In this document: positions 10,160 to 40,000 of the stretch, piece by piece
Position numbering within the stretch: position 1 is the first letter of the stretch
How the letters are laid out: each line of letters starts with the position of its first letter
DNA from: Curtobacterium sp. ZW137
GTDB taxonomy: Bacteria > Actinomycetota > Actinomycetes > Actinomycetales > Microbacteriaceae
Direction: 5' to 3'
DNA length: 64,000 nucleotides
NCBI RefSeq assembly: GCF_003762905.1
Contig: NZ_RJKS01000002.1
Coordinates: 124,001-188,000 of the forward strand
Notes under the pieces: generated by a model
Databases searched by the model: none
Told to the model about the DNA's origin: nothing
The model's input: the letters and a program-made list of their open reading frames with translations, nothing else
Translations under genes and position numbers: made by a program

Positions 10160-10244
10160 CTCACGACCCTACCGATCGAGCCGCACCCCCCGCGGTGACG
10201 TCGCACACCGTCACTCCGCCGACCTCGGACTCGCCCGCCCCGTT

Positions 10245-10300
10245 GAGCGGGCGAAACACCCTGGTCGCCCCGGCCGCGGACGCTGGCATTTCGCCCGCTC
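10245..10300. repeat. Palindromic element A, copy 1
   Basis: The arms GAGCGGGCGAAA and TTTCGCCCGCTC enclose a variable GC-rich loop of about 30 bp. The 404-bp gap 10160-10563 holds this copy, a second at 10363-10420 and a half copy at about 10347-10360. I see no gene in it. Confidence 0.85.
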
Positions 10301-10362
10301 GACCGGCGCACGCGCGACCCGCGCTCACCCCTGTCGCGAACCGGGTGATTCGCCCGTTCGGC

Positions 10363-10420
10363 CGAGCGGGCGAAACACCCCGGTCGCCCCGGCCGCTGCC
10401 CCGGGCATTTCGCCCGCTCG
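10363..10420. repeat. Palindromic element A, copy 2
   Basis: A 58-bp copy with arms CGAGCGGGCGAAA and TTTCGCCCGCTCG. It shares the inner sequence CGGTCGCCCCGGCCGC with copy 1, so the two probably arose by local duplication. It lies on the 3' side of the thioredoxin-like gene. Confidence 0.85.
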
Positions 10421-12890: not shown

Positions 12891-12979
12891 GGCGCGGCGG
12901 CACTGGCGGGCGAGCGGGCGGCGCGGGCGCGGCGTCACGTTCGGGTCCCGTCCGAACCGCGTGTGTGCGCGTTCCGTCC

Positions 12980-13034
12980 AACGGGCGAAATGCCCGGGTC
13001 CACCACGAGGTCGACTCGGACATTTCGCCCGTTC
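12980..13034. repeat. Palindromic element A, copy 3
   Basis: A variant copy with AACGGGCGAAAT arms. The 411-bp gap 12891-13301 holds this copy, copy 4, and an unrelated inverted repeat at 13205-13262. No gene is seen. Confidence 0.8.
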
Positions 13035-13095
13035 GTCGTCCCGGAGGACGGGATCGGCCCGGGGCGCGAGCCCTGCTGGCGGGTGGGCGGGCGCA

Positions 13096-13153
13096 CGAGC
13101 GGGCGAAATGCCCGGGTCCGCCGAGCGGACCACCCGGGTATTTCGCCCGTTCG
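13096..13153. repeat. Palindromic element A, copy 4
   Basis: A 58-bp copy, CGAGCGGGCGAAATGCCCGG on the left and CCCGGGTATTTCGCCCGTTC on the right, 62 bp after copy 3. The two copies are downstream of the MFS gene. Confidence 0.85.
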
Positions 13154-14609: not shown

Positions 14610-15251
14610 CTACGTCCCGAGCACCACGTCCGCCGATGCGCGCGGGTCATCCGCCGCGATGAACGCGTCCTCCTGGAGTGCCCACCGCTCCCACTCCGCC
14701 GCGAACACCGCGCCGTCCCGGTCGAGCGCCCGCCGCTTGCGCAGCCCGTCCTCGGCGGTCATCCACACCCGGAGCGTGGCGAGCGGTGCCGAGGCGCGGG
14801 ACAGGGACCCGCACCCCTCGATGACGAGCGGCGCGCCGGGTTCGAGCGACACCCACCCCGCGGGCGCCGATGTCTCCCAGTCCCACCGCCGGTACCCCGA
14901 CGGCGGTCCGAGGACGTCGCGGACCACGGCCTCGGCAGCGTCGGCGAGGCCGTCCCAGCCCGGGTAGAGGTCGTCCAGGTGCACGACCCGGCATCCGAGC
15001 GCGTCGCCCAGGGCGTTCCCGAGCGTGGTCTTCCCGGTCCCGGAGCGCCCGTCGACCAGGACGACGGACCGGCGGCCGGATGCCCGAGCAGCCGACCGTG
15101 CGCGCGAGGCGAGTTCCGTTGCGGGGCCGGGGCGAGCCTCCAGGCCGGTGTGGACGGGGCAGACGGGCCCGACGGGACCGACGGGGCCGACGGGGCCGAC
15201 GGGGCCGGTGCGGCCGGTGCGGCCGGTGCCGCCCTCGCGCGACTCAGCCAC
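14610..15251 (-). CDS. P-loop kinase (uridine kinase-like) at end of TPP-riboswitch operon
   Basis: A 213-residue P-loop kinase. Walker A is VDGRSGTGKTTLGNALGDAL, followed by VVHLDDLYPGWDGL, the acidic substrate-side motif seen in uridine/pantothenate kinase-like enzymes, and VIEGCGSLS. The N-terminal 35 residues are a collagen-like GPV repeat encoded by tandem repeats and are surely dispensable; the fold begins near residue 60. The GTG start at 15251 overlaps the ykoC stop by 8 bp, so translation is coupled to the thiamine-precursor transporter. I infer, but cannot show, that it phosphorylates a salvaged thiamine-related compound. Confidence 0.8.
   Translation of the reverse strand: MAESREGGTGRTGRTGPVGPVGPVGPVGPVCPVHTGLEARPGPATELASRARSAARASGRRSVVLVDGRSGTGKTTLGNALGDALGCRVVHLDDLYPGWDGLADAAEAVVRDVLGPPSGYRRWDWETSAPAGWVSLEPGAPLVIEGCGSLSRASAPLATLRVWMTAEDGLRKRRALDRDGAVFAAEWERWALQEDAFIAADDPRASADVVLGT
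15171..15231. repeat. Tandem 9-bp repeat coding for GPV
   Basis: GACGGGGCC-type 9-bp units repeat about six times, drifting to GGTGCGGCC. They encode the collagen-like stretch at the N-terminus of the kinase. Copy number could vary without shifting frame. Confidence 0.8.
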
Positions 15252-16050
15252 GCCACGTCCCCGCAGCGACCGACACCGCGATCGACACCAGGCCGATCCC
15301 GACCAGGACCGCGATCATCGCCCACTCGCGTCCGCCGAACCCGGCTGGCCTGGCCCACGTCCGACGACCGGGCGCTCCGAACCCGCGCGACTCCATCGCG
15401 ACCGCCAGGGTCGTCGCCCGTCGCAACGCCAGCACCAGCAGCGCGAACGCCATCGAGGCACCACGCCGCAGCCGCCCGGTGTCCGCCAGTCCCCGTGCCC
15501 GCCGGGCCATCGCGAGCTGCCGCCAGTCGTCGACCAGGAGCGTCATCATCCGGATCGCCGCCAGCGCTCCGAGCACGAAGCGGGCCGGCAGCCGCAGGAT
15601 CTGTGCCAGCCCGTCCGCGAGGTCCGTGGGATCCACCCGGATGAACAGCACGATGCTCGGCACCCCCACGGCGAGCACGCGGAGCATCGTCGCGACCGCG
15701 AGCAGCAGGGACCCGTCGGTGACGTGGACGAAGCCGAGGTCGAGCCACTCCCGTCCGGAGGCCCGCCCGTAGAGCGCGATGCTCACGCCGGTCAGGGGGA
15801 CCGCGAGGAGCACCGGAGACGTCCGGAGGAGCAGCGTCCGCACCGGGATGCGGAGGATCGGCAGCAGGGCGAGCTCGAGTCCCAGCGCGACCGCGGCGGA
15901 CACCACGTCGAGGCTCAGCACCAGGCACAGGCCGAGGCCGAGCACGCCGAGGAGCGTGGCCACCGGTTGGACGGCGCGCACGCCTCGGACGGGCCGGACG
16001 GGAGGCTCGGCTCGGCTCGACGGGGCCGCCTGCGTCGCGGGGGCGGTCAC
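15244..16050 (-). CDS. ykoC: ECF transporter T component (YkoC-like)
   Basis: A 268-residue integral membrane subunit of an energy-coupling-factor importer. The coupling helices include the Ala-Arg-Gly signature (QLAMARRARGLADTG), and a second such segment (VAMESRGFGAPGRRTW) matches the EcfT family. About five to six membrane helices are visible. It links the YkoD ATPases to the YkoE substrate subunit. The GTG at 16050 overlaps the ykoD stop (GTGA). The N-terminal 25 residues are disordered and include one copy of the GACGGGAGGC motif. Confidence 0.88.
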   Translation of the reverse strand: MTAPATQAAPSSRAEPPVRPVRGVRAVQPVATLLGVLGLGLCLVLSLDVVSAAVALGLELALLPILRIPVRTLLLRTSPVLLAVPLTGVSIALYGRASGREWLDLGFVHVTDGSLLLAVATMLRVLAVGVPSIVLFIRVDPTDLADGLAQILRLPARFVLGALAAIRMMTLLVDDWRQLAMARRARGLADTGRLRRGASMAFALLVLALRRATTLAVAMESRGFGAPGRRTWARPAGFGGREWAMIAVLVGIGLVSIAVSVAAGTWRG

Positions 16051-17816
16051 CGCGGGACCTCGGACCGGGGTCGGGTGGGCGCGGTCGCGGTCGGCGCGGT
16101 CGTCGCGCTCGTCGCGCTCGTCGCGCTCGTCGCGCCCGTCGCGCCCGTCGCGCTCGTCGCGCCCGTCGCGCTCAGGACGAGTTCGTCCGCGTCCAGGGCC
16201 CGGACCAGGTCGCGGTCGTGGGTCACGGCGACCACCGCTGTCCCGGCGTCCGCGAGGGCTCCGAGCCGGTCGACCACCGCCTGCCACGTCGCGCGGTCCT
16301 GCCCCGAGGTCGGTTCGTCGAGCACGATGACCGGGGGCCTCGTCGCGACGACGGTGCCGATCGCGAGGCGCCGAGCCTCCCCACCCGAGAGCGTGAAGGG
16401 GTTCGCGTCCGCGAGGTGCCGGAGCCCGAACGCGTCGAGGAGCTCGTCCACGCGCTGGTCCGTGTCCGGCATGCCGAGGGCCCGCGGGCCGGCGGCGAGT
16501 TCCTCGCGGACGGTGCGGGCGACGAACTGGTGCTCGGGGTCCTGGAAGACGGTGCCGATGCGGGCGGCGAGCTCGCGGCTGGACCAGGCGTGCGGAGCGG
16601 TCGTGGCGGTGGTGGTGCTCAGGGCCTCGGTCGCACGGAGGGTGCCGTCGGCGGGGCGGAGGAGTCCGGCGAGCGTGAGGCCGAGCGTGGACTTGCCGAC
16701 GCCGTTCGGCCCGGTGATCGCGAGGACCCGGCCGGCGCGGACCCGGAGGTCGATGCCGCTCCCGACGCGCTGCCGTTTGCCCCGCGCGGTCCCGAGTCGC
16801 TCCGCGACGAGGAGCGCCGCGTCGGGCGCTTCGCGCGGGGCGCCCTCGTCCTGCGGGCCGCCCTCGGCGAGCGGGCGAAATGCCCGGGCGGGGGCGTCGG
16901 CGGACGCCGGTATTTCGCCCGCTCGACCGGGCGCGGACTCGAGCGGGCGAAATGCCCGGGTGGGGGTCGCGGCGGACCCGGGCATTTCGCCCGCTCGACC
17001 CGGAGTGCGAGCGGGCGTGCGCGCGGAACCCCTCGCGGGTTCGGCGCCGGGGACCCACACGCCGGCCGCGGTCAGGGCAGCGCCGTGGGCGGCGAGCACC
17101 TCGGCGGGCGGCCCGTCGGCGACCACGCCTCCGCCGGGCTCGAGGAGCACGAGACGGTCGACCAGGTCGAGCCAGGTGCCGATCCGGTGCTCCACCACGA
17201 GGAGGGTCGCGCCGGTGTCGGCGAGCAGGGCCTCCACGGCGTCGTGCACCTGGGTGACGCCCGCGGGGTCGAGGTTCGCGCACGGCTCGTCGAGGACGAG
17301 GGCGCCCGGGCGCATCGCGAGCACCCCGGCGAGCGCCAGCCGTTGCCGCTGCCCGCCGGAGAGCATCGTCGTGGACCGGTCGAGCGCCAGGTCGAGCCCG
17401 ACGACGTCGAGTGCCGACCGGACCCGCTCCCACGTCTCGCCACGCGGGACACCGGTGTTCTCGCACCCGAACGCCACGTCGTCGCCGACGCGGGACATCA
17501 CGGTGTGCGCCTCGGGGTCCTGCATCACGAGTCCCACGCGGCCGCGGACGGACTCGGGCGCCGCTCCGTCGACGAGCACGGTGCCCTGCGCGGCGGCGGC
17601 GGTGTCGTCCTCGGGGTCCGGCTCGTCCGGCAGCACCGCGGCGACTGCCCGGAGGAGCGTCGACTTCCCGGCGCCGGAGGGGCCGACGATCGCGACGCGC
17701 TCCCCCGGCTCGACGACGAGGTCGACGCCGCGGACGGCCCAGGCGTCGCGGTCGGCGTACCGCCAGCCCCAGTCGTCGAACGCGATCCGGGCCGGGTGCA
17801 CGCCCGGCGTGCTCAC
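16047..17816 (-). CDS. ykoD: ECF transporter fused double ATPase (YkoD-like)
   Basis: A 589-residue protein with two ABC ATPase domains that power the ECF transporter. Domain 1 has Walker A GPSGAGKST, signature MLSGGQRQRLALAG and Walker B LVLDEPCANLD. Domain 2 has GPNGVGKST, LSGGEARRLAIG and VIVLDEPTSGQD. The linker is abnormal: it contains two copies of palindromic element A, translated as [20 protein letters not shown] and RAGEIPASADAPARAFRPLA. The C-terminus is a long Ala-Thr-Gly repeat from 9-bp tandem repeats. The GTG start at 17816 overlaps the ykoE stop. Confidence 0.9.
   Translation of the reverse strand: MSTPGVHPARIAFDDWGWRYADRDAWAVRGVDLVVEPGERVAIVGPSGAGKSTLLRAVAAVLPDEPDPEDDTAAAAQGTVLVDGAAPESVRGRVGLVMQDPEAHTVMSRVGDDVAFGCENTGVPRGETWERVRSALDVVGLDLALDRSTTMLSGGQRQRLALAGVLAMRPGALVLDEPCANLDPAGVTQVHDAVEALLADTGATLLVVEHRIGTWLDLVDRLVLLEPGGGVVADGPPAEVLAAHGAALTAAGVWVPGAEPARGSARTPARTPGRAGEMPGSAATPTRAFRPLESAPGRAGEIPASADAPARAFRPLAEGGPQDEGAPREAPDAALLVAERLGTARGKRQRVGSGIDLRVRAGRVLAITGPNGVGKSTLGLTLAGLLRPADGTLRATEALSTTTATTAPHAWSSRELAARIGTVFQDPEHQFVARTVREELAAGPRALGMPDTDQRVDELLDAFGLRHLADANPFTLSGGEARRLAIGTVVATRPPVIVLDEPTSGQDRATWQAVVDRLGALADAGTAVVAVTHDRDLVRALDADELVLSATGATSATGATGATSATSATSATTAPTATAPTRPRSEVPR
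16085..16175. repeat. 9-bp tandem repeat in the ykoD C-terminus
   Basis: GTCGCGCTC/GTCGCGCCC units repeat about nine times and encode the ATGATSATGATGATS tail of YkoD. The length is a multiple of three, so slippage would change the tail length without a frameshift. Confidence 0.8.
16868..16925. repeat. Palindromic element A, copy 5, inside ykoD
   Basis: A 58-bp copy within the interdomain linker coding region. It starts exactly 72 bp (24 codons) before copy 6. Both copies keep the ykoD frame open. Confidence 0.9.
16940..16997. repeat. Palindromic element A, copy 6, inside ykoD
   Basis: A 58-bp copy (60 bp with the flanking T/A pair), one of the best-matched arms in the window: CGAGCGGGCGAAATGCCCGG and CCGGGCATTTCGCCCGCTCG. 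It encodes the first linker insert peptide of YkoD. Confidence 0.9.
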
Positions 17817-18469
17817 GCTGCCGAGGAGCTGGGACGGCGTCGGGTGTGCTCGCGACCGACCGCGAAGGATGACAGCACCCCGGTGCGCGCGAGTGCCCGG
17901 ACGATCAGCCACGAGCCGATGCCGGCGATCACGGCACCCGAGATCGTGCCGCTGACGATGTAGACGGTCTTGAACGCGGCGTCGTACCCCGCGTACCAGA
18001 GCACCGAGTCGTTGATGCCCATCGCGAGGCCGGCTGCGGCTCCGGCGAGGACGACCACGGGGAGGCGGTACACGCGGTACAGGAACAGCGCGAGCACGAT
18101 CTCGGCGCCGAGGCCCTGCACGAGGCCCGCTTCGAGGGTGCTCCAGCCCCACTGCGTCCCGAGGAGCGCCTCGACGCTGGCCGCGACGATCTCGGCGAAG
18201 AGCGCGGCGCCGGGCTTCCGGACGACGAGCGCGACGATGGGTCCGGCGAGGAGCCAGACGCCGCCGAAGAGCGCCTGGGTCCCGGGGAGCAGCAGGGCGA
18301 CCGCTGCGGAGAGGGGCTCGTAGCCGAACTCCCAGAGCTTGAAGACGACGCCGACCGCGACGGCGAGCACGCTCGCGACGACGATGTCGACGACCCGCCA
18401 GCGGAGCGACCGCTTCGGCGCGGCCGACGTGGGGGTGGTTCGGACGGTGGACGGCGTGCTCGTAGGCAT
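17813..18469 (-). CDS. ykoE: ECF transporter S component for thiamine precursor (YkoE family)
   Basis: A 218-residue membrane protein with about six helices, homologous in pattern to YkoE: WRVVDIVVASVLAVAVGVVFKLWE, then a GGVWLLAGPIVALVVRKPGAA segment and LLGTQWGWSTLEAGLVQGLGAE. It should bind the imported substrate, probably hydroxymethylpyrimidine or thiamine. The TPP riboswitch directly upstream supports the thiamine link. The order ykoE-ykoD-ykoC matches other bacteria, with overlapping stop/start codons throughout. The start is ATG at 18469. Confidence 0.9.
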   Translation of the reverse strand: MPTSTPSTVRTTPTSAAPKRSLRWRVVDIVVASVLAVAVGVVFKLWEFGYEPLSAAVALLLPGTQALFGGVWLLAGPIVALVVRKPGAALFAEIVAASVEALLGTQWGWSTLEAGLVQGLGAEIVLALFLYRVYRLPVVVLAGAAAGLAMGINDSVLWYAGYDAAFKTVYIVSGTISGAVIAGIGSWLIVRALARTGVLSSFAVGREHTRRRPSSSAA

Positions 18470-18479
18470 CTGTCAGGAC

Positions 18480-18568
18480 TCCTCCCTGCGCCGGCATGAC
18501 CCGGATCAGGTTCGACGGTCGGAGCGCTGCTCGCTCCCTCTCAGCCCGGCGATCCCGGACTCCCGTGT
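18480..18568 (-). ncRNA. TPP riboswitch (THI element)
   Basis: On the minus strand, about 10-100 nt before the ykoE ATG, the conserved core elements are all present in order: GGGCTGAGAGGG, CGAACCTGATCCGG, then ATGCCGGCGCAGGGAGG. The last part also includes the ykoE ribosome-binding site (GGGAGGAG), so TPP binding would hide it and block translation. The variable P3 arm is the GAGCGAGCAGCGCTC hairpin. Confidence 0.95.
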
Positions 18569-18611
18569 GTGTCCTGGCAGTGTACCGCTGCCCTCGGCCC
18601 TGTGACGGGGG

Positions 18612-29487: not shown

Positions 29488-29546
29488 GTGAGCGGGCGAA
29501 ATGCCGGGGTGGTCGTGCCGCCGACCGTGGTGTTTCGCCCGCTCAC
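29488..29546. repeat. Palindromic element A, copy 7
   Basis: Arms GTGAGCGGGCGAAA and TTTCGCCCGCTCAC, with the loop CGTGCCGCCGACCGTGGT. It lies between the DUF4397 start and the 3' end of the GT-C gene, so it follows a gene end. Confidence 0.85.
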
Positions 29547-33730: not shown

Positions 33731-33774
33731 CGGACGGGAGGCACGGTGCCAGCTGGCACCGTGCCTCCCGTCCG
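33731..33774. repeat. Palindromic element B, copy 2; probable terminator
   Basis: A perfect 44-bp palindrome (arms CGGACGGGAGGCACGGTGCC, centre AGCT) 15 bp after the stop of the aldo/keto reductase gene on the minus strand. It differs from copy 1 by a compensated base pair in the arm, which argues for selection on the hairpin. Confidence 0.85.
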
Positions 33775-33788
33775 TGGTGGGGTGGCGT

Positions 33789-34793
33789 CTACGCGGGGCG
33801 CGAGGTCGGGCTCACGCTCTTCGAGGAGTCGCGTTCCGGGATGTCGCCGAGCGCTTCGTCGATGGCACGCAGTGCATCGGCGTCGAGCGTCACGCCCGCG
33901 GCCTTGACGTTGTCCGTGACCTGCGACGGACGGGAGGCCCCGACGATCGCGCTGGCCACGTTCTCGTTCTGCAGCGTCCACGCGATGGCGAGCTGGGCGA
34001 GGGTCAGACCAGCCTGGTCGGCGACCGGCTGCAGGCGCTGGACGGCCTCGAGGACCTCGTCGCGCATGAACCGCTTGATCATGTCCGCGCCGCCCTTCTC
34101 GTCCGTGGCGCGGGAGCCCTCGGGCAGCGGCTGGCCGGGCTTGTACTTGCCCGTCAGCACACCCTGCGCGATCGGCGACCAGACGATCTGGGACAGGCCG
34201 AGCTCCTTCGAGGTGGGGACGACCTCGCCCTCGATGACCCGCCAGAGCATCGAGTACTGCGGCTGGTTCGAGATGAGCTGGAAGCCGAGCTCCTTCGCGA
34301 GCGACGCGCCCGCGCGGATCTGCTCCGCGGTCCACTCGGAGACGCCGATGTAGAGCGCCTTGCCCTGTCGCACCACGTCGGCGAAGGCCTGCATGGTCTC
34401 TTCGAGCGGGGTCTCGTAGTCGTAGCGGTGCGCCTGGTAGAGGTCGACGTAGTCCGTCTGGAGGCGGGTCAGCGAGCCGTTGATCGACTCCATGATGTGC
34501 TTGCGGGAGAGGCCGACGTCGTTGTGCTGCTTCGGGCCGGTGGGCCAGTAGACCTTCGTGAAGACCTCGAGGCCGGCACGACGCTCACCCTTGAGCGCTT
34601 CGCCGAGGACCGTCTCCGCCGCCGTGTTGGCGTACGTGTCCGCGGTGTCGAACGTGGTGATGCCGGCGTCGAGCGCTGCCCGGACACACTGGGTGGCGAC
34701 GTCGTTCTCGACCTGCGAGCCGTGGGTGAGCCAGTTGCCGTACGTGATCTCGGAGATCTTGAGGCCGGAGTTGCCGAGGTACCTGAATTCCAT
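33789..34793 (-). CDS. Aldo/keto reductase (Kv-beta/YghZ-like)
   Basis: A 334-residue NADPH-dependent TIM-barrel oxidoreductase. It starts MEFRYLGNSGLKISEITYGN. The catalytic tetrad is visible: Asp and Tyr in TTFDTADTYANTAAE, Lys in EVFTKVYW and His in DLYQAHRYDYE. IVGASRPSQVTDNVKA is the cofactor 2'-phosphate-binding end. It should reduce aldehydes, possibly methylglyoxal-like, but the substrate is not certain. It is monocistronic, with element B as its terminator. Confidence 0.92.
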   Translation of the reverse strand: MEFRYLGNSGLKISEITYGNWLTHGSQVENDVATQCVRAALDAGITTFDTADTYANTAAETVLGEALKGERRAGLEVFTKVYWPTGPKQHNDVGLSRKHIMESINGSLTRLQTDYVDLYQAHRYDYETPLEETMQAFADVVRQGKALYIGVSEWTAEQIRAGASLAKELGFQLISNQPQYSMLWRVIEGEVVPTSKELGLSQIVWSPIAQGVLTGKYKPGQPLPEGSRATDEKGGADMIKRFMRDEVLEAVQRLQPVADQAGLTLAQLAIAWTLQNENVASAIVGASRPSQVTDNVKAAGVTLDADALRAIDEALGDIPERDSSKSVSPTSRPA

Positions 34794-34947: not shown

Positions 34948-35005
34948 CGAGCGGGCGAAATACCCGGGTCCGTCCGCCGTCGGACACTGGCATTCCGCCC
35001 GCTCG
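34948..35005. repeat. Palindromic element A, copy 8
   Basis: Arms CGAGCGGGCGAAATACCCGG and GGCATTCCGCCCGCTCG, one arm with a T-to-C change that breaks one pair. Unlike most copies it lies between divergent genes. Confidence 0.85.
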
Positions 35006-36858: not shown

Positions 36859-36916
36859 CGAGCGGGCGAAACACCCGGGCCGCCCGCCCCGTGCACCGCG
36901 GCATTTCGCCCGCTCG
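36859..36916. repeat. Palindromic element A, copy 9 (tandem array)
   Basis: First of three copies in a direct array with 124- and 126-bp periods. The 709-bp gap 36731-37439 holds the yceI terminator, this array and a simple-sequence tract; I see no gene in it. Confidence 0.9.
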
Positions 36917-36982: not shown

Positions 36983-37040
36983 CGAGCGGGCGAAACACCC
37001 GGGCCGCCCGCGCCATGCACCGCGGCATTTCGCCCGCTTG
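36983..37040. repeat. Palindromic element A, copy 10 (tandem array)
   Basis: Second copy of the array. The spacer between copies is also conserved (GCGGTCGGACGAGGACGCCG and similar), so the unit duplicated as a whole. Confidence 0.9.
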
Positions 37041-37108: not shown

Positions 37109-37166
37109 CGAGCGGGCGAAACACCCGGGCCGCCCGCCCCGTGCACCGCGGCATTTCGCCCGCTCG
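37109..37166. repeat. Palindromic element A, copy 11 (tandem array)
   Basis: Third copy of the array, with the same loop (CACCCGGGCCGCCCGCCCCG) as copy 9. Confidence 0.9.
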
Positions 37167-39006: not shown

Positions 39007-39048
39007 GGACGGGAGGCACGGTGCCAGCTGGCACCGGGCCTCCCGTCC
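39007..39048. repeat. Palindromic element B, copy 3; probable bidirectional terminator
   Basis: A 42-bp palindrome with one A/G mismatch in the arms (GGCAC against GGGCC), 15 bp after the reductase stop and 17 bp before the convergent oxygenase stop. Confidence 0.85.
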
Positions 39049-39064
39049 GGTCGTGAGCCGGGTC

Positions 39065-40000
39065 CTACCCCACCGGATCCGCTGGTGACGCGGCCGAGCG
39101 CTCCAGCCGCGCGATGCGCACGAGCGCTGCGCGCTCGCTGCCGGTCTGGTTGCCGAGCACCGCGCCGATGCCGTCGAGGACGAGGCCCGTCGTCCGCCCG
39201 ACCGGGAACTCGAGGGGGCCGAGCGAGGGCGCTCGCAGCCCGAGCATCGACCGGTGCCGCGGGTCGAGCGTCGACGCGGCACCCTGGAACAGCGCCTGGT
39301 AGCCCGGCCGGAGCATGCGCGCGAGCGGCGGGTTCCTGATGAAGCGGACGACGTCACGGGTGCGCGGCGTCACGGCGAGTTCCCCGCGGTCGAGGTACCC
39401 GTTCATCTGGGCGCGGAGCTCCGCCTCGGACTCCGGCGGGTCCTCGACGCGCATGAGCCGTCCGGCGATGGCCCATTCCCGGACGTAGGCGTCGGCGCCG
39501 CCCGGGATGGGGTCGCCCCACTGCTCGGCGGCACGGAGGAAGGCGTCGGTGAAGGCGAGGTGCACCCAGCGGGCCAGGTCGGGGTCGTTCGCGGTGTAGT
39601 CACGCGTGACACCGTGGCCGTCGACGTACTGCCCCCGGACCTTCTCGTGCAGGCGCAGGACCCACTCGCTCGCGCCACGGGCCGTCGCGGTGTCGCCGTG
39701 GGAGACGGTGTAGATCCAGCGGATCGTGCCGGCGAGGCGGCCGAAGGGGTCCTCGCGGTAGCGGGAGTGGTCGGCGACGCCGGCGAGCGCACCCGGGTGC
39801 AGCGCCTGGACGAGGAGCGCCCGGACGCCCGCGACGATCGTCTGCTTGCCGCCGTGCACCGCCCAGGTCGCGGAGCCGGGGCCGAAGAAGCCCGCGTCGT
39901 CGCCCTGTTCGAGTTCGTCCACCCACGCGGGACGCTCGGTCGCACCGCCGGTGAACGTGGTGTTGAGCCGGGAGCGGAAGGCGTCGGTGACGAAGGACAT
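39065..40000 (-). CDS. MpaB/DUF2236 family oxygenase-like protein
   Basis: A 311-residue alpha-helical protein of the DUF2236/MpaB family, relatives of the rubber oxygenase Lcp that hold heme or metal. Family marks are GPGSATWAVHGGKQTIVAG, LLVQALHPGALAGVADHS (conserved His), RLAGTIRWIYTVSHGD and the paired LHEKVRGQYVDGHG/WVHLAFTDAFL. The native substrate is unknown. It is divergent from the acyl-CoA ligase gene, with 59 bp between. Confidence 0.85.
   Translation of the reverse strand: MSFVTDAFRSRLNTTFTGGATERPAWVDELEQGDDAGFFGPGSATWAVHGGKQTIVAGVRALLVQALHPGALAGVADHSRYREDPFGRLAGTIRWIYTVSHGDTATARGASEWVLRLHEKVRGQYVDGHGVTRDYTANDPDLARWVHLAFTDAFLRAAEQWGDPIPGGADAYVREWAIAGRLMRVEDPPESEAELRAQMNGYLDRGELAVTPRTRDVVRFIRNPPLARMLRPGYQALFQGAASTLDPRHRSMLGLRAPSLGPLEFPVGRTTGLVLDGIGAVLGNQTGSERAALVRIARLERSAASPADPVG

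Follow-up and report, generated by a model that had tools for sequence, protein, structure and literature searches.

In-frame palindromes in the YkoD linker of Curtobacterium: coding members of a family of putative protein-binding dyad sites

INTRODUCTION

Among described systems, REPINs are the closest in anatomy, and Rickettsia palindromic elements (RPEs) the closest in coding effect, to the palindromic elements reported here. REP/REPIN elements, which are RAYT-associated, are portrayed in excerpts of one study as short palindromes with two conserved inverted ends and a spacer of constrained length, arranged in tandem clusters and mostly intergenic (PMC3116915), and passages of another place some REPs within ORFs (PMC3733652); the family described below shares this anatomy. 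RPEs are likewise palindromic DNA that adds a peptide in frame to a protein; an excerpt of PMC10969869 gives their length as about 150 bp and their location as many unrelated genes. The resemblance to MITEs lies in inverted ends around a short core, and that to the matS/MatP and maoS/MaoP systems of Escherichia coli, whose matS and maoS sites mark Ter and Ori (PMC5441646), in a regional clustering of sites seen in most genomes mapped.

Here we analysed a stretch of 64,000 nucleotides of Curtobacterium sp. ZW137 (NZ_RJKS01000002.1, positions 124,001 to 188,000; hereafter, the window), together with related genomes. A sequence-only reading of this window had described two copies of a palindrome inserted in frame between the ATPase domains of YkoD and had likened them to RPEs, i.e. 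to a mobile repeat that creates new peptide segments inside proteins. Intragenic palindromes are usually read as selfish DNA donating peptides; the evidence presented below points the opposite way.

RESULTS

The host gene ykoD (16047..17816, minus strand) encodes an ATPase with two ABC domains, recognised as two ABC_tran stretches. It lies in a ykoE-ykoD-ykoC operon with ykoE, an ABC_cobalt-family component (17813..18469, minus strand), and ykoC, a CbiQ-family membrane component (15244..15963, minus strand), both identified by family match, and a TPP riboswitch was found by Rfam upstream of the operon (18466..18575, minus strand); the yko names were assigned from family and gene order, not from annotation. 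Two 58-bp palindromes, each with arms of 21 nt, occupy 16868..16925 and 16940..16997, with a 14-bp spacer between them and starts 72 bp apart. Since 58 bp correspond to 19 codons plus one base, and 58 + 14 = 72, the reading frame is preserved: the minus-strand reading of the copy at 16868..16925 is RAGEIPASADAPARAFRPL plus 1 nt, and that of the copy at 16940..16997 is 19 residues plus 1 nt. One of the two peptides described earlier is RAGEIPASADAPARAFRPLA, and both read exactly as given there; the positions, the 58-bp unit, the 72-bp start distance and the maintained frame were thus confirmed by coordinates and translation. Both copies fall within the inter-domain linker (residues 264-331; 16824..17027, minus strand), which is predicted to be disordered (pLDDT <50) in a model that was computed from 13 sequences and in which the two ATPase domains are mostly confident. 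A predicted tryptic peptide of this linker is AGEIPASADAPAR. Nine-base repeats are present at 16075-16182, where ykoD codes for a disordered, SAT/GAT-rich C-terminal part of the protein.

The claim that the peptides had been inserted was examined by aligning the linkers of relatives. ykoE was located in 39 of 40 Curtobacterium genomes, with 30 loci retained, and 80 contigs were taken from named records. Among loci L020-L071, after exclusion of L055, which lacked a domain match, and of L063, whose second domain lay past the contig end, 41 distinct linkers were readable: 13 had no copy, 16 had one, 9 had two, 2 had three, and one, L025, was partly masked with two copies visible and was entered by hand as two copies in the tree. 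An additional genome, G020, had four copies. All 40 readable copies in ykoD are 19 codons plus a G, with 16-21 codons permitted by the search. Outside the genus, on the other hand, the peptide was absent from all 58 ykoD orthologue loci, whose linkers have a median length of 33 nt and reach 207 nt at most, and no element was found in the 715 kb of DNA from these loci. On a tree of 49 rows, in which the outgroup branches are long and the copy-free linker L069 branches inside Curtobacterium, presence or absence of copies takes five changes (5-6 in bootstrap trees; three forced by well-supported branches), for instance a single gain with four losses. In the sister rows L043 (one copy) and L049 (none), the sequences agree as far as the element's left edge and resume their agreement about 50 nt past its right edge. 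Empty and filled linkers were also aligned in search of a target-site duplication, for which the 3' side is too diverged. Because the peptide is absent outside the genus, copy number ranges from zero to three among the 40 fully readable linkers and the sister pair differs, these alignments indicate that the YkoD peptides are an in-frame insertion confined to Curtobacterium rather than an old conserved linker; the sharing of the same peptides with distant genera, which would have spoken for the latter, was looked for and not seen in the 58 orthologues. Beside the element copies in the ykoD linker of L025/L062 there is an N run, perhaps an unresolved palindrome.

The two palindromes in ykoD belong to a larger family with the consensus CGAGCGGGCGRAA-N31/32-TTYCGCCCGCTCG, a dyad of 57-58 bp with inverted half-sites. 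Scanning for the 21-nt half-site with up to 5 mismatches gave 23 matches in the window versus none in the reversed-sequence control. By our own gene calls, the remaining nine copies of the window are all intergenic: 10244..10301 and 10363..10420, 12978..13035 and 13096..13153, 29489..29545 (57 bp), 34948..35005 upstream of an aldo/keto reductase gene, 36859..36916 between the YceI and MDMPI_N genes, 36983..37040 and 37109..37166. Copies occur at conserved places in the genus, for example next to the genes for the aldo/keto reductase and YceI. Arm pairs 32-100 bp long were surveyed in 1.55 Mb of partly overlapping Curtobacterium sequence, with identical contexts counted once; 57 bp was found 74 times and 58 bp 121 times, every other length at most three times, and the reversed control was flat. 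Rfam, run on window positions 9500-38500, gave no match at the elements up to E 0.1; its only matches were two tRNAs and the TPP riboswitch. Literature searches with the 12-nt arm string, for Curtobacterium palindromes and for Microbacteriaceae repeats returned no description of the element in the titles and opening abstract lines of the matches listed.

With exact 9-nt arms, copies were found in 35 of 40 Curtobacterium genomes (control matches in 2), with 3-21 copies in each genome that held any. Five of the 40, namely G004, G010, G019, G027 and G035, had no exact-arm copy, and the family is therefore dispensable. An earlier search with GCGGGCGAAA arms, one spacing and up to 2 mismatches had given 23/40, as if the family were missing from many genomes; that search undercounted and was rejected in favour of the exact outer arms. 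The idea of a joint loss of the ykoD copies and the whole family was likewise dropped, as G017 and G028 have variant copies. Among the other genomes of the order sampled, 7 of 197 had a single match, always lacking the RAA/TTY extension (control matches in 3), and in a sample of the taxonomic family the four genomes with matches out of 100 were the window's own, one Curtobacterium and two with a single chance-like match (control matches in 3).

Regarding gene context, 141 of 159 copies were intergenic, 17 lay in ykoD and one in another gene, the last being a loosely matching copy located at 2.15 Mb in G001. In a group of four genomes, clade X (G015, G016, G026 and G039), there were three more in-gene calls, one of them probably arising from a mis-called start, and a spacing variant was seen in which 24 of 59 non-ykoD copies were 56 bp long. 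Two clade X genomes have an element-like palindrome of 57 bp (L255:13392-13448 and L260:12529-12585), reading ARAGGTEPHFALATLPFARS, in a glycosyltransferase-like gene whose type was judged from sequence alone; the gene was not taken as a second host, since the palindrome reads differently and chance is possible. Elsewhere, eight copies form an array between convergent genes in G000 (C2:231696-232314), mostly at 71-bp intervals and with one truncated half-site, and in G038 elements stand at or near the ends of contigs C62, C123, C129 and C301, so that short-read assemblies seem to break at the palindromes.

In order to see which part of the element is constrained, intergenic copies at orthologous sites in G001 and G032 were compared. 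Divergence in the arms was 0.058 for elements defined in G032 and 0.105 for those defined in G001, versus 0.185 and 0.178 outside the elements (P = 4e-11 and 1.0e-4, respectively) and 0.212 and 0.255 in the centres; the arm estimate is biased somewhat, since the elements were found through their arms. The two arms of 117 elements matched each other at positions 1-13 hardly, if at all, better than shuffled partners did (0.916 vs 0.911; 71 of 500 shuffles as high), and inner arm positions matched less within an element than in shuffled partners. At position 11, left A/G and right T/C were independent (counts 53, 30, 20 and 14; P = 0.61), and 19 of the 40 ykoD copies have an A-C mismatch there on the mRNA strand. 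Position 4 pairs slightly above the shuffles (29 of 500 reach it), which counts against reading the arms as half-sites. Overall the two arms vary independently, and therefore half-sites are kept rather than pairing. Centres at different sites were about as alike as shuffled ones in G000, G001, G017 and G033 (means within 0.04) and more alike in G028 (0.58 vs 0.47), and neighbouring copies in one array had more similar centres than copies at different sites; this pattern favours duplication in place and speaks against recent dispersal.

The constraint is also visible in the coding copies. The arms of the 40 ykoD copies contain CGA in 39 of 40 cases, ATA for 7 of 7 Ile, GCA for 23 of 23 Ala, GAA for 25 of 26 Glu and TTT for 9 of 32 Phe; the genome-wide frequencies of these codons are 3.8%, 0.2%, 5.9%, 12.9% and 0.1%, respectively, by our own gene calls, in which the rarest codons may come out too low because the caller is a simple one whose training used GC-rich codons, and in which two TTT counted genome-wide may be the elements' own. 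When one copy per linker was taken the pattern persisted (CGA 26/27, ATA 4/4, GCA 15/15, GAA 17/17, TTT 4/21). TTC is favoured in the right arm of the ykoD copies (23/32), and therefore codon or protein selection acts too. In clade X, the half-sites of 56 intergenic copies read G (87%), A (77%), A (67%) and C (63%) at positions 11-14, and the ykoD copies of this clade read the same consensus, by which the peptide shifts from RAGEM to RAGGT. C at position 14 was present in 5/5 clade X ykoD copies vs 1/35 elsewhere (P = 9e-6) and G at position 11 in 5/5 vs 7/35 (P = 0.0012), P values that overstate independence as the clade X rows are related. The constraint thus acts on DNA, namely on a pair of half-sites whose separation hardly varies from about three helical turns, and this applies also where the element is coding.

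The copies are not spread evenly over the chromosome. In G001 all 16 copies lie inside 299 kb and in G032 all 13 inside 295 kb, both clusters being about 1.0-1.35 Mb from the origin (distance from dnaA) on one arm, and all 17 copies of G017 lie inside 143 kb. When 20-kb stretches of G001 were sampled, 19 of 20 were copy-free, one of the 20 being inside the 299-kb span. Gene orientation in G001 turns near 1.9-2.0 Mb, with a minus-strand patch also at 1.25-1.35 Mb, which suggests that the terminus is near 1.9-2.0 Mb. In most of the genomes mapped, the sites are accordingly concentrated on a single chromosome arm. Two genomes count against regional confinement: in G025 (65% complete) copies are scattered over 1.6-3.4 Mb, and in G033 half-sites occur as far apart as 1.38 and 3.76 Mb. 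The source genome of the window has copies on two unordered contigs. The regional cluster may point to a part in chromosome organisation, by analogy with macrodomain sites such as matS and maoS (PMC5441646).

DISCUSSION

We class the Curtobacterium dyads as repetitive palindromic DNA and not as members of the RPE or REP/REPIN families, because tests for RAYT, for compensatory change, for genome-wide spread (with G025 and G033 as exceptions) and for multiple host genes all came out negative. Unlike RPEs, the element is 57-58 bp long, recurs in one host gene and shows selection on the DNA site. Unlike REPINs, it ends in CGAG/CTCG and has no GTAG or CGTC tag, its arms show no compensatory changes apart from the slight excess at position 4, and its copies, at most 21 with exact arms, are regional as in G001 and G032 rather than genome-wide, G025 excepted. 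In contrast to MITEs, its cores are mostly unrelated between sites. Unlike matS and maoS, the sites are mid-arm and the protein that would bind them is putative.

How, then, should the copies in ykoD be read? A mobile palindromic repeat of RPE, REPIN or MITE type, moved in trans by an unrecognised transposase into ykoD and intergenic places, would account for the sharp edges, the inverted ends, the near-fixed length, the tandem clusters (the last three being REPIN traits as well) and the presence or absence at the ykoD site, and the more alike centres of G028 are in its favour. We nevertheless consider it unlikely: Y1_Tnp, the transposase domain searched for, was found in 0 of 40 Curtobacterium genomes by a search that was positive in 5 of 14 control genomes, the half-site lists of G000, G001 and G033 held, by eye, no isolated inverted pair of IS size and no resident IS with these ends, centres in four genomes are about as alike between sites as shuffled ones, and the arms are conserved at orthologous sites. 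The RPE-like mobility proposed in the sequence-only reading was hence not borne out, as the copies are mostly intergenic, those in genes fall into one recurrent host (17 of 18), no Y1/RAYT accompanies them in the 40 genomes, signs of recent dispersal are slight and the constraint is on DNA half-sites.

Selection on pairing in the transcript is in our estimate quite improbable. An RNA hairpin acting as a terminator, an RNase site, a stabiliser or a pause between the ATPase domains would agree with the strong predicted folding of both ykoD copies of the window (z -8.3 and -5.1) and with the many intergenic sites between co-directional genes; however, the arms lack overall covariation, the A-C mismatch at position 11 is carried by nearly half of the ykoD copies, the arms keep an almost constant distance though the sequence between them is free, sites occur in divergent gaps as well, and Rfam had no match up to E 0.1 at the elements in window positions 9500-38500. 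Selection for the peptide as a functional linker, the palindrome being incidental, would explain the uniform 19-codon length, and retention of RAG...RPL is no evidence for it, as copies were found by that motif. This reading appears very improbable indeed, since the same arms are conserved in intergenic copies, rarely used codons are retained in the ykoD arms, changes of the peptide track the intergenic consensus of the clade, and 13 of 41 distinct linkers manage without it.

We therefore favour, as the probable explanation, that the ykoD palindromes are coding members of a family of putative protein-binding dyad sites, the peptide being a tolerated by-product. A protein would bind duplex DNA at both inverted half-sites CGAGCGGGCGRAA, 31-32 bp apart, at sites that are usually intergenic, often in small arrays, and mostly within part of one chromosome arm. 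The linker that joins the ATPase domains of YkoD, which is predicted to be disordered, may have acquired one such array; there the array would be translated in frame and retained for the usefulness of the DNA site, the sequence of the 19-residue peptide following that of the site. The in-frame insertion, the family, its near-fixed length, the slow arms, the independent half-sites, the codon constraint and the clade-wise tracking are observed; that 57 and 58 bp are both common, with 56 bp in clade X, makes the spacing not absolute and counts against a binding site. The role of the site is perhaps regional chromosome organisation. More speculatively, and in our view doubtfully, the sites could form a dedicated regional chromosome-organising system with three-turn dyads on one arm and a co-evolving reader protein, with one array so fixed that a vitamin-transporter gene carries it in frame and changes amino acids whenever the consensus changes. 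If the favoured explanation holds, the residues of a permissive linker are set by a selected DNA site that overlaps it (the change from RAGEM to RAGGT tracks a change of the site throughout a clade), so that the overlap of a DNA-site code and a protein code becomes measurable across a genus, and the regional clustering gives a way into the study of how an actinobacterial chromosome is organised.

A lead for the putative dyad-binding protein is a fast-evolving gene for an AraC-type protein of 274 aa, whose HTH_18 domain scores 32.2 bits, just under the Pfam cut-off of 33.6. It lies in the element region of G033 (L200:14567-15391, minus strand) and surfaced from a comparison of syntenic regions that treated G017 and G028 as element-free, though both carry copies. 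The protein is 40-50% identical between genomes, and neighbouring genes are mostly at 80-95%. Where the neighbourhood was covered, which leaves out G005, G016, G029 and G038, the gene was missing at the locus in all three family-less genomes (G010, G019 and G035) and in eight carriers (G006, G007, G012, G017, G020, G028, G030 and G039), and it was present at the locus in seven carriers (G000, G001, G015, G031, G032, G033 and, in pieces, G026). The window also contains a second palindrome family, GGACGGGAGGC...GCCTCCCGTCC, with a terminator-like look, at 66-127, 33732-33793 and 39007-39068.
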